A stretch of DNA of 33,793 bases. Origin: Chloroflexota bacterium. Its GTDB lineage: Bacteria > Chloroflexota > Anaerolineae > Anaerolineales > VGOW01. Numbering within the stretch: position 1 is the first letter of the stretch; the number at the start of each line of letters is the position of its first letter. Location: NCBI GenBank assembly GCA_016197225.1, contig JACPWC010000094.1, forward strand, positions 1 to 33,793. Direction: 5' to 3'. The notes under the pieces are model-generated. The model searched no databases. It saw only the letters and a list, made by a program, of their open reading frames with translations, and was not told where the DNA came from. The position numbers were made by a program, and so were the translations under genes. Below are positions 16,928 to 26,169 of the stretch, one piece after another.

Positions 16928-16966
16928 AAAAGACCCTCAAGGTTTCAGAAACCTTGAGGGTCTTTT
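16928..16966. terminator. Perfect 18-bp stem terminator, bidirectional
   Basis: The arms 16928-16945 and 16949-16966 (core AGACCCTCAAGGTTT / AAACCTTGAGGGTCT) are perfectly complementary around a 3-nt loop, flanked by an A-run on the left and a T-run on the right. It lies between convergent operons and should end both the transporter operon (+) and the suf operon (-). Confidence 0.95.
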
Positions 16967-16981
16967 CTTGAATCAGGCACT

Positions 16982-17332
16982 CTAACTTTCCGGCGGCAAG
17001 CCCACCAGCAACTCGCCGTCTTCAATTTTTACTGGATAAGCAGGAATGTCCACAATCGCCGGGAAGGACAACACCTTGCCCGAACGCACGTCAAAGTGCG
17101 CCCCGTGGCGCGGACACTCGATCTCGTAGCCGCTCAGTTCCCCTTCCGCCACCGGCCCGTCGTCGTGCGAACACACGTCGGCAATGGCGTAAAACGTCCC
17201 GGCAATGTTGAATACGGCTATAGCCTGCCCGTCAATCTCTACAATTTTGCGCTGGCCGTTGCCCACTTCATCCGCCGGGCCAATTGCCACATAGTCGGCG
17301 GTGTCCGGGTCAATCTTCTTGTAAGAAAGCAT
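16982..17332 (-). CDS. Rieske-type [2Fe-2S] ferredoxin
   Basis: A 116-residue small Rieske protein. The cluster ligands are Cys54 and His56 in CSHDDGP and Cys73 and His76 in CPRHGAHFD, the exact CxH-(16)-CxxH pattern. It resembles the ferredoxin subunit of non-haem oxygenases (NirD/BphF type). It has no membrane anchor. It is the last gene of the suf operon, 84 bp after sufU. A similar small Rieske gene often follows sufBDSU in other bacteria, where it is thought to serve as an electron donor or test client of Fe-S assembly (role unproven). Confidence 0.93.
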   Translation of the reverse strand: MLSYKKIDPDTADYVAIGPADEVGNGQRKIVEIDGQAIAVFNIAGTFYAIADVCSHDDGPVAEGELSGYEIECPRHGAHFDVRSGKVLSFPAIVDIPAYPVKIEDGELLVGLPPES

Positions 17333-17364: not shown

Positions 17365-17417
17365 ATCCACAGATTACGCAGATTTTCGCAGAACCCAATC
17401 TGTGAGAATCTGCGGAT
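17365..17417. repeat. Imperfect inverted-repeat element between sufU and the Rieske gene
   Basis: ATCCACAGATTACGCAGATT (from 17365) is matched by a near-inverted copy ending GAATCTGCGGAT (to 17417). The element fills most of the 84-bp gap and reaches into the sufU stop codon. The CAGAT/GCAGA vocabulary also appears in the element at 29582-29717. Confidence 0.6.
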
Positions 17418-17818
17418 CAATCCGTCAAATTCGGCTGATCCGTTGTTTTATCCAGGCCGTACACGCCCGCCTTGAGAACCTTCAGTGACAGCAGAGCGCA
17501 CTTGAGGCGCACCGGCCCCAGTTCAATGCCAAGCATCTCCAAAATATTTTCCTTGCCAATCTGCTTCAACTCGTCCAGCGACTTGCCCACGATTTCTTCC
17601 GTCAACATCGAAGCCGAGGCTTGCGAGATGGCGCAACCCTGGCCCGAAAACGCGGCCTCTTTGACGTGGTTGTTCTCGTCCAACCGGATGTCAATTCGAA
17701 TCCGGTCGCCGCAAAGCGGGTTATCGTCTTCGTATGAAATGTCCGCCGGTTCGAGCTTTCCTTTGTTGCGCGGGTTTTTGTAATGATCGAGGATTAACTC
17801 GCGATACATGTCGTCCAT
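17417..17818 (-). CDS. sufU: SufU-type Fe-S assembly / sulfur-transfer protein
   Basis: A 133-residue IscU-fold protein. The three cysteines and the aspartate that bind zinc or a nascent cluster are present: Cys36 and Asp38 in NPLCGD, Cys62 in GQGCAISQAS, and Cys107 in PVRLKCALL. In Bacillus, SufU takes persulfide sulfur from SufS by zinc-ligand swapping. The N-terminus MDDMYRELILDHYKNPRN is diagnostic. The last residues lie in the intergenic repeat. It starts 3 bp after the sufS stop, so sulfur donor and acceptor are coupled. It lacks IscU's LPPVK motif (PVRLK is at the place), which supports SufU over IscU. Confidence 0.94.
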   Translation of the reverse strand: MDDMYRELILDHYKNPRNKGKLEPADISYEDDNPLCGDRIRIDIRLDENNHVKEAAFSGQGCAISQASASMLTEEIVGKSLDELKQIGKENILEMLGIELGPVRLKCALLSLKVLKAGVYGLDKTTDQPNLTD

Positions 17819-17821
17819 AAG

Positions 17822-19060
17822 TCATCCAAACAGCTTCTTTACTTTGTACAGCCCTTCAATCAACTTATCCACTTCGGTAAAAGTATTATACAGATAAAAG
17901 CTGGCGCGGGCCGAAGCCGGAATCTGGAAGCGATCGTGCAGAGGCATGGCGCAGTGATGGCCGGCGCGCACGGCGATGCCGTCCGAGTCTAAAATTTGGG
18001 CGATGTCGTGCGGGTGAACGCCGTCCAGAGTAAAGGCGGCCACCCCGCCCTTCCCTTCAGCCTTCGGGCCGTACACCTTCACGCCCGGCACTTCTTCCAA
18101 TCTTTCTAATGCGTAGGCGATGATGGCTTGCTCGTGTTGATGGACGGCGGCCATGCCGACGGTAGATAAATAATCAACCGCCGCTCCCAGCCCGATGCCT
18201 TCGGCAATCGCCGGGGTGCCCGCCTCAAATTTGTTGGGCAGGTCGGCGGCTTTGAACTCGCGCAGATAGACGCGCCGGATCATATCGCCCCCGCCCAGAA
18301 ACGGCGGCATAGCCTCCAGCAACGACTGCCGCCCCCACAGCACGCCGATGCCGGTTGGCCCGCACATCTTATGGCTTGAAAACGCCAGAAAGTCCGCGCC
18401 CAGTGTCTGCACATCTACTGCAAAGTGCGGCACCGACTGCGCGCCATCCACCAGCACCAACGCTCCGGCGGCATGGGCTTTGGCGGCGATTTCGGTGACT
18501 GGGTTGATCGTCCCCAGCACGTTTGACATGTGAGTAAGACAGATGATCTTTGGCGATTTCTGAAGAATAGAGTCGAAGATGGGCAAGTCCAGTTCGCCGT
18601 CATCCGTCACCGGAATAATTTCGATGGTCGCCCCTTTTTCGGCGGCCAGCATCTGCCAGGGCACAAGGTTGGAGTGATGCTCCATCTCGGTCAGCACGAT
18701 CACATCGCCGGCCTTGAGGTTAGCCCGGCCCCAGGTGTTCGCCACCAGGTTGATCGACTCGGTGGTGTTGCGGGTGAAGATGATTTCTTTGCGAGAGTTG
18801 GCGTTGATAAACCGGCCCACCCGTTCACGGGCATTTTCGTAAAGCGCCGTTGCTTCTTCGGCCAGGGTATGCACGCCGCGGTGAATGTTGGCGTTGGAAT
18901 GGCGATAGTAGTGATCCATCGCCTCAATTACAGCCGTTGGCTTTTGCGCTGTGGCTGTCGAGTCGAGATAAACCAGCGGCACTCCGGACCTGACTTCGCG
19001 ACTGAGAATCGGGAAATCGGCGCGGATTTTGGCGGTATCCAGGGGAATGTTTGAGATCAT
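17822..19060 (-). CDS. sufS: Cysteine desulfurase SufS
   Basis: A 412-residue group II PLP-dependent desulfurase that produces persulfide sulfur from cysteine for Fe-S clusters. The Schiff-base lysine is Lys231 in SSHKMCGPTGIG, and the sulfur-accepting cysteine is Cys370 in RAGHHCAMPL. Other hallmarks are YLDSTATAQKP, ANIHRGVH and EMEHHSNLVPW. The ATG at 19060 (MISNIPLDTAKIRADFP) is chosen; a longer frame from 19135 would overlap sufD and has an unlikely N-terminus. The gene is 40 bp after sufD and 3 bp before sufU. Confidence 0.96.
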   Translation of the reverse strand: MISNIPLDTAKIRADFPILSREVRSGVPLVYLDSTATAQKPTAVIEAMDHYYRHSNANIHRGVHTLAEEATALYENARERVGRFINANSRKEIIFTRNTTESINLVANTWGRANLKAGDVIVLTEMEHHSNLVPWQMLAAEKGATIEIIPVTDDGELDLPIFDSILQKSPKIICLTHMSNVLGTINPVTEIAAKAHAAGALVLVDGAQSVPHFAVDVQTLGADFLAFSSHKMCGPTGIGVLWGRQSLLEAMPPFLGGGDMIRRVYLREFKAADLPNKFEAGTPAIAEGIGLGAAVDYLSTVGMAAVHQHEQAIIAYALERLEEVPGVKVYGPKAEGKGGVAAFTLDGVHPHDIAQILDSDGIAVRAGHHCAMPLHDRFQIPASARASFYLYNTFTEVDKLIEGLYKVKKLFG

Positions 19061-19100
19061 GTCAGCGCGTCGCGGTTGAAAACCGCTCTCACCAGTTGAA

Positions 19101-20495
19101 TCAGCCTCGCCCAGACCGGCCCATCTTTTTCTCAATATCCTTCTTCAACCGCGCAATCACGCCTTCAAATGGAATGCGTTGCATGATCGGATCGAAGAAG
19201 CCGTCTACCACCACCTTTTCGGCTTCCTCACGCGGCACGCCGCGTGACATGAGATAGAAGATGTGCTCCTGTTCCAATTGGCCGACGGTTGCCCCGTGGG
19301 TGCAGCGCACGTCGTCGGCCAGAATTTCAAGGCCGGGGATCGAGTCGGCGCGGGCTGATTTGGAAAGGACAAGGTTGCGGTTGGCCTGATAGCCGTCTGT
19401 CTTTTGCGCGCCGGGGGCCACGTAGATCATGCCCTGCCACACCGAGCGGCTCTGGTCGCGCAACGCGCCCTTGAATAGCAGATCGCTCGTCGTGTGCGGC
19501 GCATTGTGGTTCTGCTGGGTGTCGTGATCGAGATGCTGGTTGCCTTCGCCAAAATAGAAGCCGGACATTCGGCACCATGCCCCTTCACCGTCCAGATCGA
19601 TCTCGGAGAAGTTCTTGGTCAGGCGCGAGCCGATGGCGTCGAAGACCCAGTCCAGCTTTGCGTCCCGGCCAATTTTTGCCCGCTCGTGCGAAATGTGCCA
19701 GGTGTTCAAGCCCAGCGATTGCAGTTCGACAAATTTGAGGTTTGACTTCTTGCCGAGCACTAACTCGACAATTCCGGCATGCAGGTTTTCAGCCTTGCTA
19801 TCGGGTGAGCCAAGTTCGTGAACGTAAGTCGCTGAAGCGCCTTCTTCGAGAACAACCAACACGCGGGTGAAATGACTTGCGCCCGGAACCCAGGCGATAG
19901 AATGCAAGGGCAGTTCCACCTCGACGTTTTTGGGGATGTATAGAAATACGCCGCCGTCAGTCAGCGCCTCAGCCAGCGCCGCAAACTTGCCCTCTGATAT
20001 TTTCACGGCCCGGTTGAGATATTTCTTGAGCAGTTTCTCGTGTTTAGCCGCCGCTGTCTGGAAGTCGGTAAAGATTACGCCTTTGCGTTTGAGGGTCGCA
20101 GACAGTTCGCGAACTTCAATCCTGCCGCCGTTGATCACCAACTGGCCGCCTTGCTCTTTGCCTGCCAGCGGTTTCAAGAACGCCGCCGGGACAGCTTTGG
20201 TTCTGCCATTGCCGTTGAGAGCCGAAAGTTTGGTTTGCGCCCATTTGAACTGCCGGAGATCAGTGCGCCGCCAGACTTCGTCGTTCAGGGTCGGCATGGG
20301 CGTGGCTTGATAGGACTTCCAGGCTGTCAGGCGTTTCTTCACCAGCCAGGCCGGGTCTTTCTTCTTCTTGGAGAGTGCTTTTACATCCTCCACCGTCAGC
20401 TTTAATTCTGCGGGTGCCGCTGGTTCGGCTTTGCGCCGGGTGGCGATGACGGTTCGGGCATATGTCGGCTTGGGAGCCACAATTGCGTCAGTCAT
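19101..20495 (-). CDS. sufD: Fe-S cluster assembly protein SufD
   Basis: A 464-residue beta-helix scaffold subunit that forms the SufBCD complex. The C-terminal UPF0051 core is clear: LVLGKKSNLKFVELQSLG, WHISHERAKIGRDAKLDW, NAPHTTSDLLFKGAL, GYQANRNLVLSKSARADSIPGLEI, and the SufD/SufB ending CTHGATVGQLEQEHIFYLMSRG. The N-terminal region is variable and Ala/Lys-rich, with WLVKKRLTAWKSYQATPMP. It is shorter in its conserved core than SufB, as expected. It lies 79 bp after sufB, with a hairpin in the gap, and 40 bp before sufS. Confidence 0.95.
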   Translation of the reverse strand: MTDAIVAPKPTYARTVIATRRKAEPAAPAELKLTVEDVKALSKKKKDPAWLVKKRLTAWKSYQATPMPTLNDEVWRRTDLRQFKWAQTKLSALNGNGRTKAVPAAFLKPLAGKEQGGQLVINGGRIEVRELSATLKRKGVIFTDFQTAAAKHEKLLKKYLNRAVKISEGKFAALAEALTDGGVFLYIPKNVEVELPLHSIAWVPGASHFTRVLVVLEEGASATYVHELGSPDSKAENLHAGIVELVLGKKSNLKFVELQSLGLNTWHISHERAKIGRDAKLDWVFDAIGSRLTKNFSEIDLDGEGAWCRMSGFYFGEGNQHLDHDTQQNHNAPHTTSDLLFKGALRDQSRSVWQGMIYVAPGAQKTDGYQANRNLVLSKSARADSIPGLEILADDVRCTHGATVGQLEQEHIFYLMSRGVPREEAEKVVVDGFFDPIMQRIPFEGVIARLKKDIEKKMGRSGRG

Positions 20496-20574: not shown

Positions 20575-21996
20575 TCAACCGACCGATCCTTCCATCTGGA
20601 GTTGCACCAGCCGATTAAGTTCGACGGCGTACTCCATCGGCAATTCCTTCACCAGCGGCTCGATGAAACCGGCGACGACCAGCCCGGCGGCTTGATCTTC
20701 GGGGATGCCGCGACTCATCAGGTAGAAGAGTTGCTCCTCGCCAACCTTTGACACCGAGGCTTCGTGGCCGATGGTTACATCGTCTTCGTCAATCTCAATC
20801 ACCGGGTAAGTGTCCGAGCGCGACTTGTCGTCAATCAACAGCGCATCGCAAACCACATTGGACTTGGAACCGGTTGCGCCCTTGTAGACTTTGAGCAGGC
20901 CACGATACGACGACCGACCGCCGCCCTTGCTGATGGACTTTGAGGTGATGACCGACGACGTGTTCGGTGCGCCGTGCACCACCTTGCCGCCGGCATCCAA
21001 CTGCTGGCCCGGCCCGGCAAAGGCAATGGACAGAATCTCGCCGTGAGCGCCCGGCTCCATCAAATAGACCGCCGGATATTTCATCGTCACTTTTGATCCC
21101 AGGTTACCATCCACCCATTCCATTGTGGCGTTTTCATAAGCGGCGGCGCGCTTGGTCACCAAATTATAAACGTTGGTTGACCAGTTCTGGATGGTTGTGT
21201 AGCGGCACCGCCCGCCTTTCTTGATGACAATCTCGACGACGGCGCTGTGCAGAGAGTCGGAGCTGTAAATCGGCGCTGTGCACCCTTCGACATAGTGAAC
21301 GTATGCGTCCTCGTCCACGATAATTAGCGTTCGCTCAAACTGGCCGACGTTCTTGGCGTTGATGCGGAAGTACGCCTGTAGAGGCATTTCGACGTGCACG
21401 CCCTTTGGAACGTAAACAAACGAGCCACCCGACCAGACGGCGCTGTTCAGGGCCGCAAACTTGTTGTCGGTTGAGGGGATGATGGCGCCAAAGTATTCTT
21501 TGACCAGATCGGGATGCTCACGCAGGCCGTCGTCCATCGAGAGGAAGATTACGCCCTTCTCCTCAAGGTCTTTGCGTACTGAGTGGTAGATCATCTCCGA
21601 CTCGTATTGCGCGCCAACCCCGGCCAGGAATTTTTGCTCGGCCTCGGGAATGCCCAGTTTGTCAAAGGTGTTCTTGACCTCGGGCGAGACATCGTCCCAT
21701 GAAGTTGCGCTGTCTTCAGATGGTTTGATATAGTAATAGATGTTATCGAAGTCAATGCCGCTCAGGTCGGCGCCCCAGGTAGGCATGGGCTTCTTGTAAA
21801 AGATGTCAAGCGCCTTGAGGCGGAAGTCGGTCATCCACTGCGGCTCGCCCTTCATCTTGGAAATCTGGGCGACAATTTCGTGATTGAGTCCTTTTTGCGC
21901 CTTGAAGGAGTAGTTCTCTTCCTCGTGGAAGCCGTAAGCTTCCTTGTAGCGATCTTTGGAATCGAATTCTTGGGCTTGTTCTACTTTTTCAGCCAT
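20575..21996 (-). CDS. sufB: Fe-S cluster assembly protein SufB
   Basis: A 473-residue scaffold subunit of SufBCD. Strong family blocks run throughout: [18 protein letters not shown] near the N-terminus, [67 protein letters not shown] (conserved cysteine), [14 protein letters not shown], and the end [21 protein letters not shown]. The ATG at 21996 ([11 protein letters not shown]) is chosen because GAGGAGA precedes it by about 10 nt; a frame opening at 22050 would lie inside sufC. The start overlaps the sufC stop by 8 nt, indicating coupled translation. Confidence 0.96.
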
Positions 21997-22771
21997 TTGG
22001 AACAGTCTCCTCGTATTTTTCGCGCACCCAATCGTAGCCCTTCTCTTCAAGGTGCAGGGCCAGCTCGGGGCCGCCAGTCTCCACTACATTGCCGTCAAGC
22101 ATAATGTGGACGAAGTGCGGTTTGATGTAGTTCAACAAGCGTTGATAGTGAGTGATGACCAGCGCGCCCATTTTGGGGCCGATGAGAGCATTCACGCCCT
22201 CGGCTACAATGCGCAGCGCGTCAATATCCAGCCCGGAGTCGGTTTCATCCAGCACGGCGATCTCCGGCTCCAGTGTCGCCATCTGCAAAATCTCGGCTCT
22301 TTTTTTCTCGCCGCCGGAGAAACCTTCGTTCAGATACCGACCGGCAAAATCGCTGGGCACTTTCAGCAATTCCATCTTGCCTTTGAGCAATTTGCGGAAT
22401 TCAGGGATTGGCATGCCTTTGTCAGCCGGATTGGTGGCGCGGCGGCGGGCGTTGAGTGCCGTGCGGAGGAAATTGGCGACTGACACGCCGGGGATGGCGA
22501 CGGGATATTGAAAAGCGAGAAAGAGGCCCAGTCGTGAACGCTCGTCAGGTTCAAGTTCCAGCAAATCTTCGCCTTTGAAAATAATTTGCCCAGCGGTCAC
22601 AGTATATGACGGATGCCCCATCAAAGCGTAAGCTAGAGTGCTCTTGCCGGTTCCGTTTGGCCCCATCAGGGCATGTACCTCACCCTGCTTCACCAGCAGG
22701 TTTACGCCTTTCAGAATCGGTTTGTGTTCTACATTGACATGCAGATTACGGATTTCGAGCGCAGTAGTCAT
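21989..22771 (-). CDS. sufC: Fe-S cluster assembly ATPase SufC
   Basis: A 260-residue ABC-type ATPase that drives conformational changes of SufB-SufD. Walker A is GPNGTGKS (37-44), the signature is [11 protein letters not shown], Walker B is [11 protein letters not shown], and the switch histidine is in VITHYQRLL. SufC has this unusual [10 protein letters not shown] signature, which separates it from transport ATPases. It is the first gene of the suf operon, transcribed from a consensus promoter 35 bp upstream. AAGGAG lies in the short leader. It is divergent from sufR. Confidence 0.97.
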
Positions 22772-22805: not shown

Positions 22806-22834
22806 ATTATACTACTTGTCACAAGTAGTGTCAA
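22806..22834 (-). promoter_or_regulatory. Exact-consensus sigma-70 promoter of the suf operon
   Basis: On the minus strand: TTGACA (22834-22829), a spacer of exactly 17 bp, TATAAT (22811-22806). Every hexamer base matches consensus. Start is predicted near 22799, with a leader of about 28 nt containing AAGGAG. An AT-rich stretch (22835-22860, 4 G/C in 26) lies upstream as a possible UP element. Such strength needs repression, which the overlapping palindrome can supply. Confidence 0.93.
22811..22829. promoter_or_regulatory. 19-bp perfect palindrome filling the suf promoter spacer, probable SufR operator
   Basis: ACTACTTGT-C-ACAAGTAGT is a perfect 9-bp inverted repeat about one base. It spans the whole 17-bp spacer and shares one base with each hexamer, so a bound dimer would block polymerase. 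The divergent gene next to it is sufR, whose known relatives repress suf when their Fe-S cluster is present. The SufR assignment is inferred from position. Confidence 0.85.
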
Positions 22835-22860
22835 TAATTCAGATAACTATATTCTTTATA

Positions 22861-22889
22861 TTGACATCTCAATCAACGGCTGTTATACT
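22861..22889 (+). promoter_or_regulatory. Sigma-70 promoter of sufR with extended -10
   Basis: TTGACA (22861-22866), 17-bp spacer, TATACT (22884-22889) preceded by TGT, an extended -10. The predicted start near 22896 is about 4 nt before the ATG at 22900, so the sufR mRNA should be nearly leaderless. Its -35 is separated from the suf -35 by 26 AT-rich base pairs. Confidence 0.88.
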
Positions 22890-22899
22890 CTTCGCTAAG

Positions 22900-23532
22900 A
22901 TGTCTGTGACTCGTGATTCTATTCTCAACATGCTCCGGCGACGCGGCCCTTTGAGTGTGAACGATTTGGCCGACGTGACGGGGGTAACTCCTGTTTCTGT
23001 CAGGCATCACCTCTCTGCCTTGCAAGCGGAAGGGTTGATAACCGCTACTGAGTCTCACTCCAGTGTTGGCCGCCCCAAGTTGATGTATTCGCTCACTCAA
23101 GCCGCTGTTGAACGCTTCCCTACCAAATATCTGCGCTTCACCGATCGCCTTTTGGATGAGTTGAAAACCGCCCTGCCCAGCCTGATGATTGAAAAGATTT
23201 TTGAGGCGATGGCTTATGATATTGCCTCGGGTCACGCCTCGCGGCTGGAGGGCAAGACGTTGGATGAGAAGTTGACCCTGCTCGCGGAGATCTTGGGCGA
23301 GGAGGGCTTTATGGCCGAGTGGAACAAAGTGGGTGAGGCTTACCAACTGACTGAGTATAATTGCCCTTACTTTATGATCGGCCAGCGTCACCCTGAAGTT
23401 TGCACGATTGATCAAACGCTGATTAGCAAGATGCTGTCGCGCCCGGTTGCTAAAAGCACCTGTCTGCTTAATGGCGATCAACGTTGTGTCTTTGTGATCG
23501 GCGGGGCTGAAAATACATCTATCAAAGGATAA
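22900..23532 (+). CDS. sufR: Fe-S-sensing transcriptional repressor SufR
   Basis: A 210-residue regulator of the suf operon. The N-terminal winged helix (about 5-75) is of the DeoR/ArsR-like SufR type: ILNMLRRRGPLSVNDLADVTG, the recognition helix TPVSVRHHLSALQAEG and the wing SSVGRPKLMYSLT. The C-terminal sensory part holds four cysteines: Cys155 in YNCPYF, Cys168 in PEVCTI, Cys188 in KSTCLL and Cys196 in QRCVFVI, which are expected to bind the Fe-S cluster. The ATG at 22900 is chosen: it sits about 11 bp after the -10, whereas an open frame from 22795 would run through both promoters. No ribosome-binding site precedes it. It is followed 2 bp later by a MIP18-family gene. Confidence 0.94.
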   Translation: MSVTRDSILNMLRRRGPLSVNDLADVTGVTPVSVRHHLSALQAEGLITATESHSSVGRPKLMYSLTQAAVERFPTKYLRFTDRLLDELKTALPSLMIEKIFEAMAYDIASGHASRLEGKTLDEKLTLLAEILGEEGFMAEWNKVGEAYQLTEYNCPYFMIGQRHPEVCTIDQTLISKMLSRPVAKSTCLLNGDQRCVFVIGGAENTSIKG

Positions 23533-23534
23533 TT

Positions 23535-23879
23535 ATGGCTGAAAATACTTCCTCAAAGCTTGTCTGGTTTTCTGAGGCCGATAAACCTGAACTCTCGGCG
23601 CGGGTGAAAGATGCTCTGCGTGAAGTGGTTGACCCGGAACTGGGGCTGAACATCATTGAGTTGGGCCTGATTCGCGACCTGGATGTTCAACCGGATCGGG
23701 CTATGGTGACAATGATCCTGACCACGCCGTTTTGCCCTTATGGTCCGGCCATTATGGAAGAGACGCGCAAAAAGATGCAAAGTGTTGTCGGCGTCCCGGT
23801 GGTGATGGAGATGGGGTTGGAGATGTGGAGCCCGGAATTGATGGAAGAAGGCGCAGGCGCGGATTGGGGCCTGTTTTAG
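23535..23879 (+). CDS. MIP18/DUF59-family Fe-S assembly factor (SufT-like)
   Basis: A 114-residue protein of the MIP18 (DUF59, PaaD/SufT) family. The conserved blocks are VKDALREVVDPELGLNIIELGLIRDL and MTMILTTPFCPYGPAIMEE, with the reactive cysteine in TPFCPY. Relatives help deliver clusters to client proteins. It starts 2 bp after sufR and has AAAGGA upstream, so it is cotranscribed with the regulator instead of with sufCBDSU. A hairpin terminator lies 48 bp downstream. Confidence 0.92.
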   Translation: MAENTSSKLVWFSEADKPELSARVKDALREVVDPELGLNIIELGLIRDLDVQPDRAMVTMILTTPFCPYGPAIMEETRKKMQSVVGVPVVMEMGLEMWSPELMEEGAGADWGLF

Positions 23880-24217: not shown

Positions 24218-25126
24218 ATGACGGTTACTTCTGTTGTGTCGAGGGTGCGGCGGGTGTTGTTTATCGTTCATGATCCGGTTTCAGGTGGGCGTAAGTTGCA
24301 CCAGTTGTTTGGTTGGAATGATTCTGGTTTTTTGGGTGATCTCTATATTCGAGATGTTTGTGATTGCAGTCTTGCCTACGCGAATTTTGAGATCGTGGAA
24401 CGGGTTGAAGTTGACGGCTTCCCCGTGAAGCAGGATGGCTTTCGATATACCACCGATCAATACCTCAAATGTTGGCGCTCGCGTTCCGGGTTTCATCAGC
24501 CTGACCTGGTGGACTATCACCGTCTGCTCGACGAGTTTGACATCGTCTCCAAAATCAACAGCGGCGCGATTGACGAAGTGTGGTTGTTCGGCCCGCCTTA
24601 CGCCGGTTACTACGAGTCGATCATGGCCGGGCCGGGCGCGTTCTGGTGCAACGCGCCGCCGCTGACCGGCACGAAGGCCAACCGGCGCTTCATCATCATG
24701 GGCTTCAACTACGAGCGCGGCGTGGGTGAGATGCTGGAAGATTTGGGCCACCGCGCCGAGTCGATCATGAGCAAGGTGTTTGAAGGCAAGCGCGGCGAGG
24801 CGAATTTGTGGGAGCGATTCACCCGTTACGACAAAACGCACTCGGGCCGGGCCGAGTGCGGCAACGTCCATTTTGCGCCGAACAGTGAGCGCGATTACGA
24901 CTGGGGCAACCGCCGCAACGTCGTCAGCCGCTGTGACGACTGGCACAACTTTCCGAATTTCAAGGGCGCAACGCGAACGGTGAATTGCAGTGAGTGGGGC
25001 AACGGCGACATTCGCCAGCATCACCTGTGGTGGTTCAAGCACTTCCCGCACGCGGCAGGCGAGACGAACGGGATTTCGAATAATTGGTGGTCTTACATCA
25101 TTGACCCCAATTTGGTTGAAACATGA
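24218..25126 (+). CDS. Unrecognised protein coupled to an acetylpolyamine deacetylase
   Basis: A 302-residue protein whose family I do not recognise. The start is secure: GGAGG lies 4 nt before the ATG. The first part (about 12-45) reads like a beta strand and loop (RRVLFIVHDPVSGGRKL) and the protein has no signal peptide. The centre has YIRDVCDCSLAYANFEI and VWLFGPPYAGYYESIMAG, and the second half is rich in His, Trp and Asn with WHNFPNF, HHLWWFKHFPHAAG and NNWWSYIIDPN; several cysteines and histidines could bind metal. The WWFKHFPH and ISNNWW blocks look like the most conserved part. It overlaps the deacetylase start by 4 nt (ATGA), so the pair is translationally coupled. Its biochemical role is not predictable from the sequence. 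Confidence 0.85.
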   Translation: MTVTSVVSRVRRVLFIVHDPVSGGRKLHQLFGWNDSGFLGDLYIRDVCDCSLAYANFEIVERVEVDGFPVKQDGFRYTTDQYLKCWRSRSGFHQPDLVDYHRLLDEFDIVSKINSGAIDEVWLFGPPYAGYYESIMAGPGAFWCNAPPLTGTKANRRFIIMGFNYERGVGEMLEDLGHRAESIMSKVFEGKRGEANLWERFTRYDKTHSGRAECGNVHFAPNSERDYDWGNRRNVVSRCDDWHNFPNFKGATRTVNCSEWGNGDIRQHHLWWFKHFPHAAGETNGISNNWWSYIIDPNLVET

Positions 25127-26169
25127 AGGTCTTTTACTCCGAAGCCCACCGTGCCCACAACCCGCCTTTTGAAATTTTTGAGGGCGGCGTGAAGATACCC
25201 GTCTTTGAATGCCCGGAACGGATGGATCGGGTGCTGGCCGCGCTCCGCAAAACGGTTTGGGCGGAGATTGCGCCGCCGGAAGACTTCGGCCTGGAGCCGA
25301 TCCGCGCTGTCCACGCCGATGATTATTTGCAGTATCTCGAAAATGCCTTTGCTGATTGGAAGCGCGAGGGCGGTCAATCGGGCGGCCCGGAATTCGACAG
25401 CCCGCTGGTGATGCCGGCCACTTTCCCGCCGCGCCGTTGGAGCAACAAGCGCCCGACCTCGCTGGCAGGGCGTTCCGGTTTCTACACCATTGACCTCAAC
25501 GCGCCCATCGTCGCCGAAACGTATCAGGCCGCGCTCATGTCGGCCAACTGCGCGCTCTCAGGCGCAAAAGCGATTGTGAGCGGCGAGCGGGTTGCTTTTG
25601 CCCTCTGCCGCCCGCCGGGCCACCACGCCGGGCGCGACAACTGCGGCGGCTACTGTTACCTCAACAACGCCGCCATCGCCGCCAGGTGGCTCTCGAAACA
25701 TGGCAAGGTTGCTATTCTGGACATAGATTATCACGGCGGAAACGGCACGCAGGATATTTTCTACGAGTCGGCAGAGGTGTTGACGATCTCGATCCATGCT
25801 GATCCGAATTGGGAGTATCCGTTTTTCGCCGGGTATGCCGACGAGGCCGGGGCGGGCGCTGGACTCGGCTACCACCGTAACTTCCCCCTGCCCCCGCACA
25901 CCGACGACACCCACTACCTTGAAGCTTTGGGCGAAGCCATCGGCTTGATCAGGAAATTTAATCCAGCGCATTTGGTCATCTCAGCCGGCATGGATATTTA
26001 CAAAGGCGACCCGCTGGGGAAATTCGACGTGACGACAGACGGCATCCGCGAGATTGGGCAACGGATTGAAGGGATGGGCTTGCCGACTCTGGTGGTGATG
26101 GAGGGCGGTTATAACAACGAGGCGCTGGGGGAGAATGTGGTGGGATTGCTGTCGGCGTTTGCCAACTAA
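25123..26169 (+). CDS. Class II histone deacetylase-like / acetylpolyamine amidohydrolase
   Basis: A 348-residue zinc-dependent deacetylase of the arginase/HDAC fold, nearest in look to acetylpolyamine amidohydrolases. The catalytic histidines are His167-His168 in RPPGHHAG. Zinc ligands are Asp202 and His204 in DIDYHGGNGTQ and Asp291 in SAGMDIYKGDP. The catalytic tyrosine is Tyr330 in MEGGY. The N-terminal segment FECPERMDRVLAALR and the insertion with PATFPPRRW and RSGFYTIDLNAPIVAETYQAA are the layout of the polyamine group and differ from AcuC. It may hydrolyse acetylspermidine-type substrates or acetyl-lysine. The ATG overlaps the previous stop, pointing to a joint role. Confidence 0.92.
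   Translation: MKVFYSEAHRAHNPPFEIFEGGVKIPVFECPERMDRVLAALRKTVWAEIAPPEDFGLEPIRAVHADDYLQYLENAFADWKREGGQSGGPEFDSPLVMPATFPPRRWSNKRPTSLAGRSGFYTIDLNAPIVAETYQAALMSANCALSGAKAIVSGERVAFALCRPPGHHAGRDNCGGYCYLNNAAIAARWLSKHGKVAILDIDYHGGNGTQDIFYESAEVLTISIHADPNWEYPFFAGYADEAGAGAGLGYHRNFPLPPHTDDTHYLEALGEAIGLIRKFNPAHLVISAGMDIYKGDPLGKFDVTTDGIREIGQRIEGMGLPTLVVMEGGYNNEALGENVVGLLSAFAN

Follow-up and report, generated by a model that had tools for sequence, protein, structure and literature searches.

Which element between the divergently transcribed sufR and sufC genes serves as the operator of the suf operon is the question raised by the locus described here. Two candidates adjoin, a perfect palindrome that fills the spacer of the sufC promoter and an AT-rich dyad between the -35 hexamers of the two promoters, and a first-pass annotation of the letters had settled on the palindrome. 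The window, by which we mean the whole stretch of DNA that was analysed (33,793 nucleotides, positions 1 to 33,793 of contig JACPWC010000094.1, Chloroflexota bacterium assembly GCA_016197225.1), comes from a genome of 4.8 Mb in 126 contigs.

The operon is made up of sufCBDSU and a Rieske gene, with sufR divergent. All five suf genes lie on the minus strand and score above their profile cut-offs, bearing out the first-pass reading of a suf operon: sufC at 21989-22771 (TIGR01978, 354 bits, cut-off 213), sufB at 20575-22050 (TIGR01980, 726 bits, cut-off 346), sufD at 19101-20495 (TIGR01981, 265 bits, cut-off 222), sufS at 17822-19135 (TIGR01979, 606 bits, cut-off 475) and sufU at 17417-17818 (TIGR01994, 119 bits, cut-off 92.5). 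The sufB frame is given from its first possible start and overlaps the end of sufC; the true start is probably further in. The Rieske-type ferredoxin gene (16982-17332, minus strand; PF00355, 67 bits) is apparently the last of the operon. On the plus strand a sufT-like gene adjoins sufR (23535-23879; PF01883 FeS_assembly_P, under the NCBIfam SUF_assoc cut-off). Beyond it, at 24218-26169, a 302-aa ORF overlaps the start of a histone-deacetylase-family ORF by 4 bp; the 302-aa ORF has no Pfam or NCBIfam match at E values up to 0.001.

The regulator gene (22900-23532, plus strand) encodes a winged-helix protein whose N-terminal winged helix-turn-helix matches PF01022 HTH_5, of ArsR type, with an E value of 5e-10, and which carries Cys155, Cys168, Cys188 and Cys196. 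Residues 4-200 align to positions 2-208 of TIGR02702, a model named for cyanobacterial SufR, at 99.3 bits; because the equivalog cut-off of 178.8 is not reached we use the name SufR-like and leave the protein outside that equivalog. Orthologues were sought in the order, and upstream regions were read for the 90 best of the SufR matches, which occur in 180 genomes; one locus with only 4 nt of upstream sequence (L017) was dropped, leaving 89. Cys155, Cys168 and Cys196 are kept in all 89 orthologues and Cys188 in 84, the window included in both counts, and the recognition helix is well conserved across the set. In the window Cys155, Cys168 and Cys196 have the cluster-ligand spacing C-X12-C-X27-C, as in SufR of M. 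tuberculosis. The earlier identification of the divergent regulator as SufR holds in the form SufR-like. The gene stands beside the suf operon in the window, and sufC is divergent from it in 60 of the 89 upstream regions. Judged by SufR, Chloroflexi MAGs with 79% and 74% identity come nearest, and a search of the genome collection for species closer still yielded two loci that are apparently L003 and L004. A solved-structure search with SufR gave three weak matches, to the N-terminal part only, and no full-length SufR. A second SufR-like paralogue, about 30% identical, is found at 1477-2106 of L035 (genome G000, contig C40), with similar genes in L032, L033 and L034; the L035 protein keeps Cys at the three ligand positions, and its gene is followed, in the same orientation, by one for an A-type Fe-S carrier (PF01521). 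Such a paralogue is present in all four family genomes that have SufR.

The sufC promoter reads TTGACA CTACTTGTGACAAGTAG TATAAT on the minus strand (22834-22806), agreeing with the consensus at all 12 hexamer positions with a spacer of N17, as the first-pass annotation had claimed. The maximal strength that it ascribed to the promoter, and its complete occlusion by one dimer, are assumptions. It is the sole 12/12 match to TTGACA-N17-TATAAT in the window, where three promoter matches with at most two mismatches occur against a shuffle mean of 0.54 and a largest shuffled value of 3. Near-consensus quality of this promoter is a family trait: at least 11 of the 12 consensus bases are found at 59 of the 60 loci with a verified divergent sufC, the window included, and 20 of these 59 are exact with N17, the sole exception being L015, where no promoter was found. 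The sufR promoter, TTGACA-N17-TATACT, lies on the plus strand at 22861-22889, and the sufR start codon follows 10 nt past its -10 hexamer (22890-22900), which implies a near-leaderless mRNA; the distance from the -10 hexamer to the first aligned sufR codon is 7 to 11 nt in 22 of the 79 upstream regions in which a promoter was found.

As the first-pass annotation had seen, the sufC spacer is one perfect palindrome touching both hexamers. It runs from 22811 to 22829 as a 9-1-9 arrangement, ACTACTTGT-n-ACAAGTAGT, with 9+9 paired bases about one unpaired centre, and its 19 bp take up the entire 17-nt spacer together with one base from each hexamer. By our own estimate a perfect palindrome centred exactly in a given promoter spacer has a probability of about 1e-5 per promoter before selection; this one came to light in a scan over many sequences, which weakens the small nominal figure and leaves room for chance. 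An order-1 random model predicts 0.15 9-1-9 palindromes per window, against two observed. The second, at 16938-16956, is flanked on both sides by A and T runs and looks like a bidirectional terminator between the end of the suf operon and a convergent ORF; a terminator scan of the window does not list it.

The palindrome was then compared with its counterparts elsewhere, as the first-pass annotation had suggested in naming relatives without a palindrome at this position as grounds against its suggestion of a SufR site that may define a new class. The comparison set consists of 69 reverse-strand promoters from the 89 upstream regions, the window included, and 12 from sufC genes that lie apart from sufR. 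None of the 80 candidate promoters other than the window's is a perfect palindrome, with the proviso that a divergent sufC was confirmed for 60 of the 89 upstream regions, so that some of the 80 may belong to other genes; the window alone has all pairs, followed by L003 and L059 with 6/9 and L009 with 6/10, while the remaining candidates have 0 to 5. The four genus-mates likewise lack a perfect copy (L003 6/9, L004 3/9, L006 3/9 and L180 2/9 pairs). We reject the palindrome as an order-wide SufR site, as it is perfect in the window only among the candidate promoters compared, and the new class proposed for it is not supported. Nor do we accept that the palindrome marks a regulon: the window's genome holds no second copy within 3 mismatches, and the inner core ACTTGTnACAAGT occurs at three places with at most one mismatch against 24 for the reversed pattern, a control that is itself palindromic, may have sites of its own and is perhaps not neutral.

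The published type of SufR site fares no better as an operator for this order. CAAC-N6-GTTG is absent, within 1 mismatch, from the 260 nt upstream of sufR in the window, and at up to one mismatch it occurs in 6 of the 89 upstream regions against a shuffled mean of 6.7. There is thus no enrichment and we reject this motif as operator in these 89 upstream regions; the first-pass statement that the site here differs from the cyanobacterial one is upheld to that extent.

What the upstream regions do have in common is an AT-rich dyad of consensus ATATTTAnGATAnnTATCnnAnATAT followed by TTGACA, situated between the back-to-back -35 boxes. In 84 of the 89 regions its score on a 31-column model is greater than the maximum of 1780 shuffles, a figure that is partly circular as the model was trained on the sites scored. 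More telling are 12 genomes in which sufC is apart from sufR, eight of them with the two genes 1.9 to 194 kb apart on one contig and four with the genes on different contigs; these are 12 of the 29 loci without a visible divergent sufC, and 11 of them come from one family (f11). In each of the 12, sufC has a dyad of its own immediately upstream of its -35 box, with best scores of 28.2-36.9, in every case on the strand opposite sufC, against a control maximum of 16.2 in 1200 shuffles. Since a separate dyad accompanies a sufC gene distant from sufR, the element is no by-product of two facing -35 boxes; it follows the suf promoters, with both arms kept where only one adjoins, which speaks for an operator common to sufR and suf. 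Several family f4 genomes (G181:C68, G163:C1, G200:C244, G121:C274, G142:C181, G135:C31, G075:C321 and others) have two dyads about 50-75 bp apart near sufR.

Genome-wide searches with a strict pattern place the dyad predominantly at sufR. With a 31-bp pattern that includes the -35 box and up to 3 mismatches, 24 genomes gave 22 matches at 18 places, of which 17 are at sufR, each in a different genome, and one is not, and the reversed control gave none; seven of the 24 have no match at this stringency, including the window's genome and the nearby G003, G002, G024 and G069. Among 400 genomes of the phylum the dyad pattern was found in 28 of the 34 other same-order, 0 of the 20 other class and 1 of the 345 remaining genomes, and the dyad thus appears, as judged by pattern matching, to be restricted to the order. 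A looser 26-bp pattern, again with up to 3 mismatches, is matched in 117 of 201 order genomes, which by our tally are 107 of the 180 with a SufR match (reversed control 24) and 10 of the 21 without one (control 5); so loose a pattern is met outside suf as well, whether at other targets or through chance AT-rich matches. One genome without a SufR match, G067, has a copy with a single mismatch to the 26-bp pattern (L181 1761-1786, contig C390), and none of eight suf-region proteins sought in the 4.5 kb around it was found. The single place away from sufR matched by the 31-bp pattern, a 3-mismatch copy, is 1501-1531 of L118 (genome G193, contig C75), in front of a gene for an Fe/Mn superoxide dismutase (PF02777, PF00081). 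Its first base is the final base of a TACAAT -10-like hexamer that has TTGACA 17 nt upstream; a wider regulon is possible.

In the window itself the copy of the dyad, ATAATTCAGATAACTATATTCTTTAT at 22834-22859 with its centre at 22846/22847, is recognisable but weakened. Its 26-column score of 19.1 was not exceeded when its own upstream region was shuffled 5000 times, nor in 5000 local shuffles, and it ranks 83rd of 89 on these columns, where L006 is 17th, L003 52nd and L004 88th. On 31 columns it scores 13.0 against a control value of 13.04 and is among the five that do not exceed their shuffles, because the outer dyad formed by the two back-to-back -35 hexamers (TGTCAATA/TATTGACA, 22829-22866) is 2 bp longer than in seven aligned relatives. 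No match within 3 mismatches of the consensus is found in the window's genome, even with the looser 26-bp pattern. In the genus pair L006/L180 the dyad is identical and each of the two spacers keeps 14 of 17 bases.

We consider it likely that this divergent region controls sufR and sufCBDSU together, with cluster-bearing SufR bound to the AT-rich dyad (22834-22859 in the window) and repressing both until the cluster is lost. Holo-SufR, carrying its iron-sulfur cluster, would bind the dyad between the back-to-back -35 hexamers, a single bound complex would block access of sigma to both near-consensus promoters, suf and sufR would be repressed together, and loss of the cluster would release both. 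The palindrome of the sufC spacer would in this scheme be at most an added operator for sufC alone, perhaps offsetting the weakened dyad. The scheme builds on promoters that are near-consensus, on a dyad that is present at both of them even where the genes are apart and on a conserved spacing of Cys ligands; from these we infer SufR as the dyad-binding protein, repression as the effect of binding and the cluster as the signal. Measured from either predicted start the centre of the dyad lies near -47 to -50, an uncommon place for simple occlusion and one that would be suitable for an activator or for UP elements as well, and the near-match in the SufR-less genome G067 tells against strict specificity of the dyad. 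Also counting against the scheme are the weakness of the window's own copy, the genomes missed by the 31-bp pattern, the low TIGR02702 score of the regulator and the existence of a second SufR-like paralogue.

That the conserved block might be a pair of UP elements for the alpha subunits of RNA polymerase, and no operator at all, is suggested by its AT-richness and its place directly upstream of both -35 boxes. We regard this as quite improbable: the letters GATAnnTATC and both arms are kept over much of the order, both arms persist where a single suf promoter adjoins (12/12), and the 31-bp pattern occurs outside sufR only once in 24 genomes. A regulator other than the SufR studied here, Fur-like or the second SufR paralogue, could instead bind the dyad. 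GATA...TATC has what we take to be a resemblance to Fur hexamers, a 3-mismatch copy lies at the superoxide dismutase promoter, near-matches occur away from suf genes, and the paralogue is found in all four family genomes that have SufR; yet the spacing of the dyad presumably does not fit a 7-1-7 Fur site, strict matches are almost confined to sufR and the regions upstream of the paralogue, read by eye, have no obvious copy of the dyad. We therefore think this unlikely, and co-repression by SufR from the dyad is the explanation that we prefer for the order.

The palindrome is then either a young auxiliary operator restricted to the window's lineage or a coincidence. To our minds the chances are about even that an ordinary spacer drifted into mirror symmetry and came to notice through the number of promoters read: the other candidates are poor in pairs, only three spacer positions separate L003 from the window and a genome scan carries a large look-elsewhere effect. 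Against this stand the low probability per promoter before selection and the closeness of the window to L003, its nearest relative, with which it shares 14 of 17 bases of the sufC spacer but 5 of 17 of the sufR spacer (P of 9e-5 at a background identity of 35% and 6e-3 at 50%, for a comparison chosen post hoc). The same contrast, together with nine pairs of nine exactly centred in the spacer, the 6/9 pairs of L003 and the weakening of the AT-rich dyad in the window, lends some substance to a working operator that arose recently in this lineage, at which SufR or another dimeric regulator would directly block the sufC promoter alongside or instead of the dyad. The SufR wing, moreover, deviates in L002-L004 (SHSSVGRP, VHSAVGRP and SHSGVGRP, against the common RHGVGRP), and these changes and the spacer identity with L003 are hints, not proof, that the palindrome may matter. 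The recognition helix is nearly unchanged, though, the sufR promoter has no copy of the palindrome, none of the four genus-mates has it intact and the genome offers no second copy and few core matches, so that we see in a recent operator a serious possibility but would not assume it; it is compatible with co-repression from the dyad for the order as a whole. A doubtful extension is operator turnover, by which the ancestral SufR dyad of the lineage would have decayed through a 2-bp insertion and loss of the TATC half, the new palindrome would have taken over repression and the SufR wing would have changed to match; L003, with an intact dyad and an imperfect palindrome, would then represent an intermediate state. 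If the palindrome does work, the genus becomes a small natural series for watching operator replacement.

Iron-sulfur-linked control of suf genes is also exerted by IscR and RisR, which are of the Rrf2 family and thus of a different protein family from the regulator here, with its matches to HTH_5 and the SufR model. For SufR in Chloroflexi our search of an open library, with some titles judged from the listing, found nothing usable. Among the closest known systems is cyanobacterial SufR (Synechocystis sll0088), which has the general logic proposed here: sufR and the suf operon are divergent, as in the window (PMC6034842), the protein combines a winged helix with C-terminal Cys ligands, as found here, and action as holo-repressor and autoregulator (PMC8593673, PMC13421787) would be expected of the window's protein too. 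Unlike the cyanobacterial SufR, the window's protein is under the TIGR02702 cut-off, and, unlike the cyanobacterial system, sufC leads the operon. Our actinobacterial comparison group comprised M. tuberculosis Rv1460, S. avermitilis and C. glutamicum. In Rv1460, according to PMC6034842, Cys203, Cys216 and Cys244 form Cys-X12-Cys-X27-Cys, the ligand spacing of the window's protein, and leaderless initiation is proposed, the window's sufR being near-leaderless too, whereas in M. tuberculosis the suf operon begins with sufR. The S. avermitilis SufR site is given in PMC11995493 as CAAC-N6-GTTG overlapping the -10 hexamer, unlike the site proposed here. With its AT-rich GATAnnTATC, the proposed site departs from the cyanobacterial CAAC-N6-GTTG as well; a single box lies where it could serve both near-consensus promoters, and the dyad, rather than the palindrome, is the element to examine first. 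A concrete suf operator can thus be proposed for an order of Chloroflexota, and it is unlike the CAAC-N6-GTTG published for SufR elsewhere.
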